From: a virus
IMG/VR virus record: IMGVR_UViG_3300001450_000322
Location: 1-23,425 of that record
Length of the DNA stretch: 23,425 nucleotides
Reading direction: 5' to 3' (one strand)
The notes under the pieces are model-generated. The model searched no databases. It was not told the origin of the DNA and saw only the letters and a list, made by a program, of their open reading frames with translations. The position numbers were made by a program, and so were the translations under genes. Positions 8,199 to 17,906 of this stretch are shown one piece after another; position 1 is the stretch's first letter; the number at the start of each line of letters is the position of its first letter.

Positions 8199-9500
8199 AT
8201 GGCTAGACAAAATGCATGGACCGAGGCTGAAGATAAATTTCTGCGAGATTGTGTTAAGCGAGGGTTAAAAAACCCACAGATCGTCATTGCCTTTGGGTCG
8301 AAATTTGGCCCAGAAAAACGAGGCAAGGCAGCGATCACCAAGCGTCGTTCAGATACCTGTAGTGATATTCCTACCTTGAGAGGAAGTGGTTATCTGGTGC
8401 CGGAGATGGTCAAGCCGGACGAAGATGTCCATGTCAATGTCGCTGATGGCGAAGAGACGGGTAAGGTTCATGTGCTGGCAAGTCGTAGCATCAAAAATCC
8501 TGAAATGCTTTTTGAGAAGTCCGGTTTAGATCCGGAGAAATGGGAGCTTGTCCCCGGTGAACATACAATTAAAAAGTGGGATGTTCCCATGCGTATCAAG
8601 GAAGAGCCATTGGTCATCCCATGCTGGTATGTTGCCATCAAGGTTCGCTTGAAATATGAACACACAATGTTGCCAATTCCTATTGTGTTTGAGATGCCGA
8701 CACGCGCAAAGAACATAAAATCTGTGCATCGTAGTATTACCACTAGCGTACACTTTTCCGACGTACACTTCCCACATCAAAGCACTGAGTCTGTCGAGAT
8801 CCTCTATCAAATTCTAGACGATCTAGAGGATGTAGAGTTCGTAGCAGACCAGGGAGACACGCTCGACTGTCAAGAAATCTCTGCCTTTCCTAAAGATCCG
8901 GAGAAAAGAATTAGCCTCAAGGAAGAGGTCATTATGGGGGCAGAACATTTTGCTACTGTTTCCCAGTTAGTTCCCAATGCCGAAAAGATATGGTGTGAAG
9001 GCAACCATGAGGATCGGCTGCGAAGACTAATATGGAGTCTAGCAGACAAGCGACAAGCTGGAGAGATACTAGCGTTGGACTCAATCAGGCAAGCTTTACA
9101 ATGGGGGAGTATGCTAGGGCTTGATAGCCTTGGCTGGGAATCGATACCCTATCCGAAGCATCACCTCTTGAACAACCGATTGATTGTTTGTCATGGCGAA
9201 GTTGCCAGACAAGGAAGTGGGCAAAGTGCTAAAGCCGAACTGAAGAAGTTCTCCAAGAGTGGTATATCAGGGCATACTCACAGAGTGGAGTATTATGGAG
9301 AACGAACTTACGATGGAAGCATTGGATGGTGGGGGTTAGGATGTCTCTGCGACATTACTAATGTTCAGTACACCAATCATCCTAACTGGCAACAGGGGTT
9401 TGCTGTGGTGAACTGGAGTCCAGACAAAAAGACCTACAGTGTAGAGAGGGTTCGCATTCACGATGGCAAGGCAATCTTTCGTGGCAAAACTTATGGATAA
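8199..9500 (+). CDS. Calcineurin-like metallophosphoesterase with N-terminal Myb/SANT-like helices
   Basis: 433 aa. Residues 1-50 (WTEAEDKFLRD, then a basic helix) resemble a SANT/Myb-like DNA-binding segment. A middle part (about 98-170) with WELVPG and KWDVPM is a lead-in that I have seen in phage metallophosphoesterases. The catalytic part shows all five calcineurin-type motifs: DVH 188-190, GDTLD 219-223, GNHE 268-271, CHGE 331-334 and GHTH 358-361. Such enzymes bind two metal ions and hydrolyse phosphodiesters; the substrate here (nucleic acid or nucleotide) is unknown. The nearest AGGAG is 18 nt from the ATG, so the start is less certain than the function. The stop lies at the base of the hairpin that ends the opposing transcript. 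Confidence 0.87.
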   Translation: MARQNAWTEAEDKFLRDCVKRGLKNPQIVIAFGSKFGPEKRGKAAITKRRSDTCSDIPTLRGSGYLVPEMVKPDEDVHVNVADGEETGKVHVLASRSIKNPEMLFEKSGLDPEKWELVPGEHTIKKWDVPMRIKEEPLVIPCWYVAIKVRLKYEHTMLPIPIVFEMPTRAKNIKSVHRSITTSVHFSDVHFPHQSTESVEILYQILDDLEDVEFVADQGDTLDCQEISAFPKDPEKRISLKEEVIMGAEHFATVSQLVPNAEKIWCEGNHEDRLRRLIWSLADKRQAGEILALDSIRQALQWGSMLGLDSLGWESIPYPKHHLLNNRLIVCHGEVARQGSGQSAKAELKKFSKSGISGHTHRVEYYGERTYDGSIGWWGLGCLCDITNVQYTNHPNWQQGFAVVNWSPDKKTYSVERVRIHDGKAIFRGKTYG

Positions 9501-15549: not shown

Positions 15550-16155
15550 TTAGTTAATGTATCCCATCATATTATCTAGCTTGTGCTTCTCTTCTGCCTC
15601 AAAAATAAAAGTGTAAAGCTCATCTTCGCTGACCAACTCATATGCTTCGTCTAGTCTCTTGTCGAGTGCATCTCTTTGGCCTTGGGGTATGTACTCCCCA
15701 TTCACACGACCATCATTGATGAGTATTGTTTTGCCACCACCATTGGAAAGATGAGGCTGAAAGGCCTTGTCTAGACATCTGTGGCCATTCTGGTTGTGCC
15801 ACACCTGTGTAGAGAAGCCATCGTCTGGATGCCAGTTGAAATTCAAAGCCTGAAGCTCGTACACCCAAGCCTCTACATCGCCAGAGCTTTTCAGTGGGCT
15901 AAAGGCAAATTCCCAAGCCTCGACCTCTGCTCTTAGTAAGGATTGGTTGTGATTGAACCTTTGGTCTCCAAAACCTTGTTTGCATGGAATGCAGACTTTC
16001 TTATTTGTCGTTCCATGGACATAGTGAATCTTGTCGTAGTCTTTACAGCCGAACTCACCACCACGCTCATTGTCATATGTAACGTGAGGGATGATCGTCC
16101 CACATATCCCACACTGTACGTCATTGGGGTTGGTTTCTTGTGCTGTTGTAGTCAT
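15550..16155 (-). CDS. Zinc-ribbon protein of unknown function, 201 aa
   Basis: The N-terminal part has QCGICGT (Cys15, Cys18), FGCKDYDKIH (Cys37) and VCIPCKQ (Cys55, Cys58), a likely Zn ribbon or treble-clef-like finger. The remainder is Trp/Glu/Asp-rich (EAWEFAF, EAWVYELQ) with an acidic helical C-terminus ending LDNMMGYIN. AAGGAAAG precedes the ATG. It is the first gene of the leftward block, right after the divergent control region, so it is probably the earliest made. Early position plus a nucleic-acid-type finger suggests regulation or host takeover, which is inference only. Confidence 0.7.
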   Translation of the reverse strand: MTTTAQETNPNDVQCGICGTIIPHVTYDNERGGEFGCKDYDKIHYVHGTTNKKVCIPCKQGFGDQRFNHNQSLLRAEVEAWEFAFSPLKSSGDVEAWVYELQALNFNWHPDDGFSTQVWHNQNGHRCLDKAFQPHLSNGGGKTILINDGRVNGEYIPQGQRDALDKRLDEAYELVSEDELYTFIFEAEEKHKLDNMMGYIN

Positions 16156-16212
16156 TTGTTTCTTTCCTTAATTGAAGGTGTTTTTGTAACACATCAAAAT
16201 TTACGAAGAAAA

Positions 16213-16242
16213 CTAGGATAGGGCAATAGCCCTCGCACCTAG
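16213..16242. repeat. Nested inverted repeat containing the AGGGC/GCCCT palindrome
   Basis: CTAGG (16213-16217) pairs with CCTAG (16238-16242), and inside it AGGGC (16220-16224) pairs with GCCCT (16229-16233) around AATA. The core differs by one base from the palindrome at 10571-10584. On the minus strand it is followed by TTTTCTTC, so it might act as an operator, leader hairpin or terminator. Confidence 0.55.
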
Positions 16243-16273
16243 ATTTATTTTGGTGACAGAGTTATATAACAAT

Positions 16274-16383
16274 GTCCCCTGTCGGCAGTAGATGCCTGTC
16301 CGCTGTGTTCAAGAGAACCGACTGGAGCCTAGAACTCCGGGAAGCGACAGGGGCACTTATTCAATGCTTTTCTAGGAGGCAGT
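16274..16383 (+). ncRNA. Structured 5' leader with a loop-to-Shine-Dalgarno pseudoknot
   Basis: CCCCTGTCG (16276-16284) pairs perfectly with CGACAGGGG (16345-16353), closing a 60-nt domain. Inside are GGCA/TGCC (16284-16287 with 16293-16296), GTTC/GAAC around AAGA (16307-16318), and TGGAG/CTCCG (16323-16327 with 16335-16339). The last holds a 7-nt loop CCTAGAA (16328-16334). That whole loop is complementary to TTCTAGG at 16370-16376, which overlaps the start of AGGAGG (16374-16379) before the initiator ATG at 16384. Pairing would block ribosome access. It resembles a riboswitch or autogenous translational control element, but I recognise no known class. Confidence 0.55.
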
Positions 16384-17037
16384 ATGATTGTGAAAATTAC
16401 CAACTGGGATGTCTTCCAGCATTACCAGAACAGAAGGCCGCCGTGGATAAAGTTACACAGGCAGCTACTTGAAAATAGACACTGGCATCAATTGGGTTCT
16501 GACGCTAGCAAGTTGCTAGTGGAGTGTTGGCTCATCGCTAGCGACAACAGCGATGGCACTATCCACGATGAGCTAGAAGATTTGGCATTTCGGTTGCATC
16601 GTGATGCAACGACAATCTTGCCATTACTGCAAGAGCTTGTGGGACATGGGTTTATACAGATTGAGACTGATGATGCTAGTGAGGTGCTAGCAGAACGCTT
16701 GCAGGTTGCTGTACCAGAGACAGAGGGAGAGGGAGAGACAAAGAAGAGAGAGAGAGTTGTATACTCAGAATCTTTTGAAGAGTTGTGGCAGATACATCGA
16801 AGTGGAAGCAAAAAGAATGCACTCCCTTATTATAAAAAGGCAATAAAGATAGTCAGCCATGAGGAGTTAAAGGATGCTCTGTTGAAGTACACAAGAACAT
16901 TCAGCAAAGACTTCAAGGGTATGCATCTGTCTAGGTGGCTGAAAGATGAACGGTGGGAAGAACAAGAAGGTACTGGTCAGGCCACTACCTTTTTAACATT
17001 GCAGGGTTGGTCACCTCCAGCATTACAGGGGAAATAA
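16384..17037 (+). CDS. Phage replication initiator (replisome-organiser type)
   Basis: 217 aa. The N-terminal region (about 15-95) runs WIKLHRQLLENRHWHQL, then SKLLVECWLIASDN, DGTIHDELEDLAFRL and LLQELVGHGFIQI, the winged-helix layout of phage replication initiators. A Glu/Gly/Lys-rich linker (about 112-124) follows. The C-terminal part (about 128-200) has SFEELWQIHRSGSKKNALPYY and MHLSRWLKDERWEE, typical of helicase-loading replication proteins. AGGAGG lies 4 nt before the ATG and is covered by the putative leader pseudoknot. The stop overlaps the helicase start (TAATG), supporting initiator-helicase pairing. The origin may lie inside this gene. Confidence 0.78.
   Translation: MIVKITNWDVFQHYQNRRPPWIKLHRQLLENRHWHQLGSDASKLLVECWLIASDNSDGTIHDELEDLAFRLHRDATTILPLLQELVGHGFIQIETDDASEVLAERLQVAVPETEGEGETKKRERVVYSESFEELWQIHRSGSKKNALPYYKKAIKIVSHEELKDALLKYTRTFSKDFKGMHLSRWLKDERWEEQEGTGQATTFLTLQGWSPPALQGK
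16504..16756 (+). other. Possible replication origin: GCTAGYR repeats and a purine tract within the initiator gene
   Basis: Five GCTAG[CT][AG] heptamers start at 16504, 16515, 16537, 16675 and 16686. The outer four form two pairs, each spaced exactly 11 bp, about one helical turn. A 41-nt tract at 16716-16756 has only two pyrimidines and codes for the linker between the two protein domains. Repeats followed by a skewed tract inside the initiator gene recall the lambda ori. Caution: both pairs encode a similar peptide (DASxxLxE), so coding may explain part of the repetition. Confidence 0.35.
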
Positions 17038-17906
17038 TGAAAAATTTAACGAATGCAGATTATTTAAAAGAGTTTGCCATAAGGCAGACGGCAGAACCAG
17101 AAGCAGTGCCAACGCCCTTTCCCTCATTAAATTCCATTCTAAGGGATGAGGGCGGTGGCATAGGTACAGCCAAAGGGTGGGTCGGAATCATAGCTGCAAA
17201 TCCGGGGCACTTCAAATCTGTGCTAGGCATTAACTTCTGCGCAGAGGCTATGAAGAAAGGTATGCCCACTGCGTATGTGAGTTTGGAAATGTCTGACAAT
17301 CAAATTGCATCCAGAGCTTATGCGATTATTTCTGGACAATCGGTGGCACGTTTGGAGAGTGGTAGTTTTTCGCCAAAGACATTTGAACTTGCGTCTGGTG
17401 AGGTGATGAAGATGCCACCTCTCTATTGTCCAGAGAGAGTTTCCACCCAGTGGGAAGATGTGGTTGATTTTGTGAAGGTCTGCCATGAGGAACACTCTGT
17501 AGATTATTTCGTACTCGACTACATCCAGCTTACGGCCATAGGTGGCAGTGAGAGCATAGTAGAGGCGATATCAAATGTGACCACTGACCTTCGAGCATGG
17601 GCAGTCAACAACAGGGTGTGCGTGATTATTCTGTCACAGTTTAACCGAAGGACATCTTCGGATTATACGCAGCCACCTCGAAGTCAGGGACTTCATGGAT
17701 CTCAAATCTTGGAAGCCTCAGCCGACTGGATAGCCTTGGTTGACCACAGCAGAGTCAAGAGGGAAAACAATAGATGTCTCTTTTGGCTGTGTATCGATAA
17801 GAACCGCCATGGTGTTTCTCAGATTTCCATTCCTGTCGAAGTGAGCTATGATACATTAAGAGCAAGAGAATGTTTAGAGGATGAACTGAATGAATTTATC
17901 AAATAA
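17037..17906 (+). CDS. DnaB-like replicative helicase, RecA fold
   Basis: 289 aa from the ATG in the TAATG junction at 17035-17039, with AGGGGAAA before it. Motifs: Walker A region AANPGHFKS (53-61), the YVSLEM strand with Glu84, the Walker B equivalent FVLDYIQL (158-165), ILSQFNRR (198-205) and DKNRHG (254-259). These are the DnaB family H1, H1a, H2, H3 and H4-like elements. It lacks the N-terminal DnaB domain and is shorter than bacterial DnaB, as in many phage helicases. In the Walker A motif the glycine before Lys60 is replaced by Phe59. It should unwind DNA at the fork after loading by the preceding gene's product. Confidence 0.86.
   Translation: MKNLTNADYLKEFAIRQTAEPEAVPTPFPSLNSILRDEGGGIGTAKGWVGIIAANPGHFKSVLGINFCAEAMKKGMPTAYVSLEMSDNQIASRAYAIISGQSVARLESGSFSPKTFELASGEVMKMPPLYCPERVSTQWEDVVDFVKVCHEEHSVDYFVLDYIQLTAIGGSESIVEAISNVTTDLRAWAVNNRVCVIILSQFNRRTSSDYTQPPRSQGLHGSQILEASADWIALVDHSRVKRENNRCLFWLCIDKNRHGVSQISIPVEVSYDTLRARECLEDELNEFIK

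Follow-up and report, generated by a model that had tools for sequence, protein, structure and literature searches.

Why would a phage place a folded RNA directly in front of a gene for replication initiation, and what is the role of a hairpin loop in this RNA that is complementary to the ribosome-binding region of the same gene? The question is raised by IMGVR_UViG_3300001450_000322, a 23.4-kb phage record that we analyzed over its full length (positions 1 to 23,425; here, the window). The gene at 16384 to 17037, on the plus strand, matches PHROG 26426 (E value of 3.7e−14), PHROG 270, and PHROG 186 (E value of 2e−7), with the labels replication protein, replication initiation protein, and DnaD-like helicase loader. 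We refer to it as the initiator gene, and it is the presumed target of the leader described below. It is followed directly by a rightward gene for a DnaB-like helicase (17037 to 17906), while an open reading frame at 15550 to 16155 runs leftward, divergent from the initiator. The 228-nt gap between this leftward open reading frame and the initiator contains the folded leader. No match to a sigma-70-type promoter was found upstream of the leader.

The divergent promoter region also holds a palindrome, GGGCAATAGCCC (16221 to 16232), which is conserved as GGGCAGTTGCCC at 750 to 761 in a second phage, L017, where it lies within the −35/−10 spacer of a leftward promoter-like site. The palindrome is perhaps a repressor operator.

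A predicted four-way junction in the leader

The structured leader RNA comprises 83 nt of the plus strand (16274 to 16356, the ends being placed according to the fold) and is predicted to form a four-way junction. It is closed by the helix P1, the core of which consists of 9 bp between CCCCTGTCG (16276 to 16284) and CGACAGGGG (16345 to 16353); the predicted fold extends P1 to 11 pairs by adding G16274-C16356 and T16275-A16355 across a bulged C16354. Three hairpins are enclosed by this stem: P2 (16285 to 16306), whose inner pairing is the least certain in the predicted folds, P3 (16307 to 16318; GTTC-AAGA-GAAC), and P4 (16322 to 16340; CTGGAG-CCTAGAA-CTCCGG). The linker J3/4 (CGA, 16319 to 16321) joins P3 to P4, and the linker J4/1 (GAAG, 16341 to 16344) leads from P4 back into P1. 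The loop of P4, L4, has the sequence CCTAGAA (16328 to 16334). One strand of P2, AGTAGATGCCTGT (16287 to 16299), is a 13-nt, 92% inverted match to a coding stretch of the initiator (16457 to 16469); we gave this match no weight, since nothing corresponding to it is listed for L017.

Is such a fold exceptional by itself? The minimum energy of the segment from 16268 to 16410 is ordinary, with a z score of −1.22 and 21 of 200 shuffles equally good. Moreover, a loose descriptor (a stem, a hairpin, and a loop able to pair with downstream sequence over 6 nt or more) returned 448 rows, several of them per place, from both strands of 597 kb, and it flagged six places in the window, one of which is the leader. 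The descriptor is thus too permissive to be of use for finding homologues. The geometry of the leader alone is unconvincing, and the case for it rests on the position of the complementary sequence at the Shine-Dalgarno sequence and on conservation in L017.

The loop of P4 is complementary to the Shine-Dalgarno region of the initiator

All 7 bases of L4 are complementary to TTCTAGG at 16370 to 16376, a target that overlaps the Shine-Dalgarno sequence AGGAGG (16374 to 16379), itself complementary to the 3′ end of 16S rRNA. The ATG of the initiator is at 16384, and in the window and L017 alike (TTCTAGG at 908 to 914 in the latter) 7 nt lie between the target and the start codon; the linker from the leader to the target measures 13 nt in the window and 11 nt in L017. 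The 9-bp stem, the three hairpins, the 7-nt loop, and its counterpart at the Shine-Dalgarno sequence, all of which had been described in the original prediction, are present in the sequence, and the observation of a folded leader with a loop complementary to the Shine-Dalgarno sequence is confirmed.

How readily would a match of this length arise by chance? When leader hairpin loops were compared with the 20 nt preceding the start codon, a 7-nt match occurred in 4 of 1,480 swapped combinations of leader and Shine-Dalgarno region (39 representative leaders, with the two window/L017 swaps excluded) and in 6 of 2,000 mononucleotide shuffles of the window leader. The chance of a 7-nt loop match is hence about 0.3%, close to the initial estimate by which a coincidence had been called unlikely. 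Among the 39 representative leaders, a 7-nt match between a hairpin loop and the Shine-Dalgarno region is found only in the window and L017, and the next best match has 5 nt.

The computed energy of the duplex between L4 and the Shine-Dalgarno region is −7.6 kcal/mol; in this computation, the program formed 6 of the 7 possible pairs. For pairing with the ribosome, we used what we take to be the letters of the 16S 3′ end. On this assumption, the Shine-Dalgarno sequence of the window binds 16S rRNA with −10.2 kcal/mol, which is stronger than the loop duplex, and in L017 the two energies are about equal (−7.3 kcal/mol for 16S rRNA and −7.6 kcal/mol for the loop).

Compensatory changes in a second phage

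From an alignment search with the N terminus of the initiator, we kept the 80 best of 587 viral loci. The search for homologues, which had been proposed along with the original prediction, led to one independent homologue, L017 (IMGVR_UViG_3300031605_001085), the initiator of which is 56% identical to that of the window. Its leader (815 to 896) likewise precedes the initiator and is predicted to form the same four-way junction (z score of −2.80; 2 of 200 shuffles equally good), with P2 longer by 1 nt. The elements CGA, CCTAGAA, GAAG, and TTCTAGGAG are identical to the letter in the two phages amid an otherwise diverged leader.

Because MAFFT misregisters P1 and P3 of the two leaders, we counted the pairs helix by helix in a script, with a register that we chose ourselves and with P2 excluded. 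Across P1, P3, and P4, 20 pairs could be aligned. In L017, both partners differ, with pairing preserved, in 11 of these, a single partner differs in 2, and 6 are unchanged; the last one, an A·A in P1, is broken. P1 accounts for 11 aligned pairs (7 changed on both sides, 3 the same, and the broken one), P3 for 4 pairs (3 changed on both sides and 1 the same), and P4 for 5 pairs, none of them broken (a double change in 1, a single change in 2, and no change in the other 2); one outer pair of P4 in the window has no counterpart in L017. We also shuffled the L017 leader and simulated descendants of the window leader with unconstrained stems, holding the three invariant motifs fixed in both procedures. 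None of 2,000 shuffles kept the fold, and it was present in 7, 1, 0, and 0 of 1,000 descendants at 30, 40, 50, and 60% change per site, respectively. The fold has been kept despite compensatory change and is lost in shuffles and simulations, which argues that the stems are maintained as RNA. Judged from these two sequences, then, the leader stems evolve as RNA, and their preservation by compensatory change in a homologue agrees with what the original prediction had anticipated.

The independent lineages that carry the fold number two, the window and L017. The match between the loop and the Shine-Dalgarno region is conserved on both sides and invariant across these two phages, so that covariation neither proves nor refutes this pairing. 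A sister contig is identical to the window over all 6,651 bases compared and is therefore uninformative as a homologue. L016, the next closest among the relatives listed, has an initiator 59% identical to that of the window and lacks a leader of this kind. L017, for its part, conserves neither a second antisense segment nor an upstream target.

Two other features of these records deserve mention. At 163 to 229 on the minus strand, L017 has a subthreshold match to the hammerhead type II ribozyme (28.8 bits against a cutoff of 37; E value of 0.095). GCTAGC-type repeats are present inside the initiator gene of the window (16504 to 16692), L017 (1043 to 1230), L016 (1290 to 1475), and L003 (4841 to 5020). 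By their sequence, these repeats appear iteron-like, and the replication origin perhaps lies inside the gene, as it does in gene O of phage lambda.

Searches for further copies

Rfam contains no match to the window leader, in line with the earlier remark that no known riboswitch class was recognizable. When 16150 to 16450 was scanned at E values up to 10, the only hit was a weak match to a nematode snoRNA at 16408 to 16430, which lies inside the initiator gene and was taken as chance. An identity of the leader as tRNA or tmRNA was rejected as well.

No third copy of the fold was found among the best 80 of 587 and the best 80 of 576 relatives of the initiator. At the level of DNA, the window leader showed no similarity in phages and only one 25-nt match in plasmids (E value of 4), and the L017 leader had only one weak match in phages (E value of 0.8). 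Among the matches listed, pattern scans of viral contigs gave only the sister contig and L017, and searches with the helicase and the divergent gene gave the sister contig alone. In bacterial and archaeal genomes, a pattern scan produced six matches, none of which has the fold (predictions judged by eye), and with the initiator profile 147 pattern matches in bacterial and archaeal genomes included no relative. A search of the open literature produced no paper on the leader element among the matches listed.

Other RNAs in front of related initiators

What occupies this position in related phages? After repeats and leaders shorter than 100 nt were dropped, 150 rows left 100 distinct leaders, which regular expressions divided into 43 of class A (GGCTAG...GAAAAG), 4 of class B, and 53 others. 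By eye, L105, L123, L140, and L143 among the 53 are class A-like; L021, assigned to class B by the expression, proved on inspection to lack the class B hairpins, which leaves 3 leaders in class B.

Class A leaders are related to the int-alpA RNA of Rfam: all 16 class A loci in the Rfam scan match int-alpA at E values not exceeding 1.9; for 9 loci the E value is 0.03 or lower, and 3 loci reach the gathering score. RNAs resembling int-alpA are located directly 5′ of the initiator in L022, L030, L049, L067, L068, L083, L085, L087, and others. Rfam classifies int-alpA as an sRNA; in the literature searched, one paper names it, in a table and a single sentence, and no stated function was found.

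Do class A loops also match their own genes? With the 15 distinct loops taken from 40 class A members, the match between a loop and its own downstream sequence has a mean length of 5.5 nt, compared with 3.3 nt for swapped combinations, and none of 2,000 permutations reached the observed sum, although the class A sequences are related and this figure is therefore not a clean probability. In the case of 11 loops, no more than 4 of the 14 swapped loops equal the own match; in the case of the remaining 4 (L022, L033, L068, and L083), between 6 and 14 of the 14 swapped loops match equally well or better, the missing match of L068 being due to the shortening of its loop by the regular expression. 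Some leaders have such matches at two sites, as is the case in L087 (CCCTTT/AAAGGG and TTCACC/GGTGAA).

Class B (L060, L071, L090, and L008) has a GCTGGT...CCAGT..GCCAAC-type core as in C4 RNA, with the two hairpins in reverse order relative to C4 and a run of T after the closing stem. The L008 leader (938 to 1018) has a z score of −4.92. No Rfam C4 match was obtained for the class B leaders tested at E values up to 5 (L008, L060, and L071).

A general test of complementarity between leaders and ribosome sites drew on 79 of 82 leaders (the 80 best of 587, L008, and the window; L034, L041, and L044 were lost at the start-codon step). Its 39 representatives gave 4.97 versus 4.64 nt, an excess so slight that not every initiator leader can be taken to have such an element.

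Comparison with C4 RNA, CI RNA, and other known systems

The closest precedent for the leader, of similar dimensions and not named in the original prediction, is found in the C4/CI antisense RNAs of phages. According to the respective papers, loop b′ of C4 partly covers a ribosome-binding site and loop a′ confers specificity (PMC5320573), and the CI RNA of P4 is processed from an untranslated transcript of the replication genes, is complementary to flanking sequences, and shuts those genes off through premature transcription termination (PMC4825925). The annotation of the P1 record lists a C4 RNA of 77 nt, with a2 (7 nt) 3 nt past C4 and b2 (8 nt) 10 nt before icd, both complementary to segments within C4. 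The energies of these duplexes are −7.3 and −8.6 kcal/mol, compared with −7.6 kcal/mol for the loop and Shine-Dalgarno region of the window. In P4, an Rfam C4 match lies at 8420 to 8507 on the minus strand, within the stretch annotated cI, and from this position we infer that it is the CI RNA.

Like the C4 RNA of P1 and P7 (RF01695), the window element is structured, measures about 80 nt, and lies in the 5′ portion of the transcript that it would control. C4 has 7- to 8-nt segments complementary to sequences just downstream, one of them near a ribosome-binding site, and the window leader likewise contains 7 nt of complementarity to the ribosome-binding region (7 and 8 nt in P1 C4). However, C4 consists of two hairpins on a long closing stem and the window leader of a four-way junction; C4 has two antisense segments with upstream targets a1 and b1, whereas the window has one clear antisense loop and no upstream copy; and C4 controls icd/ant, whereas the window element precedes a replication initiator. 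As regards upstream target copies corresponding to a1 and b1, only CTAGG at 16213 to 16217 was found in the window, and no CTAG is present upstream of the leader in L017 (680 to 868). By eye, TGCCT (16293 to 16297) could pair with AGGCA (16377 to 16381) beside the first site, and no such match was seen by eye in L017. No covariance match to C4 was obtained in the window at 16150 to 16450 (E values up to 10) or in L017 (E values up to 5); the same Rfam library does detect C4 in P1 and P4. With the size, position, and complementarity of a C4-type RNA but another fold and sequence, the leader would work like C4 without being a member of this family.

The leader would share with the CI RNA of P4 its location in a transcript of replication genes, shares its complementarity to a flanking sequence, and differs from it in its fold and in the site of complementarity, CI acting by termination (PMC4825925) and the window loop being complementary to the Shine-Dalgarno sequence. 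Complementarity to the Shine-Dalgarno sequence suggests translational control, unlike in P4. The int-alpA RNA (RF02996) also resides directly 5′ of related phage initiators and has loops complementary to downstream sequences, but it has its own fold and the conserved letters GGCUAG and GAAAAG, and neither the window leader nor L017 gave a covariance match to it. In pseudoknot riboswitches that sequester the Shine-Dalgarno sequence, such as SAM-II, a loop or strand pairs with this sequence; the window leader differs from these by having no Rfam match, no metabolic gene, and no evidence for a ligand. By analogy, the C4 RNA of P1 and the CI RNA of P4 would be its nearest working analogues.

A probable brake on replication

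We hypothesize that the leader holds down translation of the initiator by pairing of L4 with the Shine-Dalgarno region, with a logic like that of C4 and CI and either in cis or in trans, and on balance we lean toward this explanation. L4 would present CCUAGAA and pair with UUCUAGG, thus covering the first bases of the Shine-Dalgarno sequence and excluding ribosomes. Both modes of action are possible: in cis, the pairing would form within the same mRNA as a pseudoknot; in trans, the leader would be cut out and act on other copies of the mRNA, which could serve copy control or immunity. For the proposal to hold, the leader would have to be transcribed in the form drawn here, and the pairing would have to form and to repress. 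At the level of sequence, it is based on the complementarity, the compensatory conservation of the fold in a second phage, and the invariance of loop and Shine-Dalgarno sequence. From these data, the conserved RNA leader is real, its loop is probably one that blocks the Shine-Dalgarno sequence, and the leader is probably a brake on replication.

Could the leader instead be the operator of a protein? The initiator or another phage protein might bind the junction or the elements CGA, GAAG, and L4 and so stabilize or break the lock between loop and Shine-Dalgarno sequence, comparable to the autogenous control of T4 gp32. The invariant unpaired letters of the junction, CGA and GAAG, which are conserved besides the loop, would suit a binding site, and the gene encodes a replication protein of a kind that, judged by its family, binds DNA. 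However, nothing here indicates protein binding, and L016, with an initiator 59% identical, lacks the element, which is awkward for autoregulation by the initiator itself; we regard a protein operator as rather unlikely. We consider it very unlikely that a small molecule stabilizes the junction and the pseudoknot between loop and Shine-Dalgarno sequence. A compact junction with invariant unpaired nucleotides would fit a riboswitch, and the geometry of riboswitches that sequester the Shine-Dalgarno sequence resembles that of the window leader, but Rfam has no riboswitch match, the invariant unpaired letters outside the loop amount to only 7 nt, and the two examples, the only ones, both precede phage initiators and hence a replication gene. 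The switch proposed in the original prediction therefore stands as a closed leader with several hairpins and a loop matching the Shine-Dalgarno region before a replication initiator; its control by a ligand finds no support, and nothing points to a ligand.

The sequences CCTAGAA and TTCTAGG also form an inverted repeat, and they might be CTAG sites in DNA that are bound by the initiator or a repressor, with the RNA fold being incidental. The region of the window leader contains four CTAG, and the iteron-like GCTAGC sites in the initiator gene are often 11 bp apart. The leader sites, however, are without the GCTAG flank seen at the iterons, in L016 iterons occur without any CTAG in the leader, and the compensatory changes in P1, P3, and P4, together with the failure of shuffled and simulated leaders to keep the fold, need an explanation at the level of RNA. 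We thus rejected DNA iterons as the source of CCTAGAA/TTCTAGG, and protein-bound DNA sites in general appear hardly probable. That a foldable leader acquired its loop match by accident and has no function would agree with the modest energy z score of the window (only −1.22) and with how common the loose geometry is, but given that the loop match has a chance of about 0.3% and that L017, though diverged, has the same fold and match, mere coincidence is extremely improbable.

A role of the leader in immunity is suggested by analogy with the known systems. No match to an integrase or resolvase was found in the window record or a 45-kb relative, both possibly incomplete, so that lysogenic immunity gains no independent support from these records.

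Translational repression through L4 would make the leader a known kind of control, the antisense or pseudoknot control of a key phage gene, exerted by a fold that is absent from Rfam. A broader and more tentative idea is that, across this broad group of phages, the position before the initiator is a slot for interchangeable RNA cassettes, filled by an RNA of the int-alpA type, a reordered C4-like RNA, or the four-way junction. Each of these would match the region where ribosomes bind in front of its own initiator and thereby set the specificity of an RNA-based replication license or immunity. If this is true, the window carries a cassette fold missing from Rfam. Irrespective of such cassettes, a conserved RNA brake acting on a replication initiator would carry RNA-based control of replication or immunity beyond P1 and P4, with a fold other than those of C4/CI and int-alpA and the same logic of complementarity, and it would point to a role for the int-alpA RNA that can be tested.
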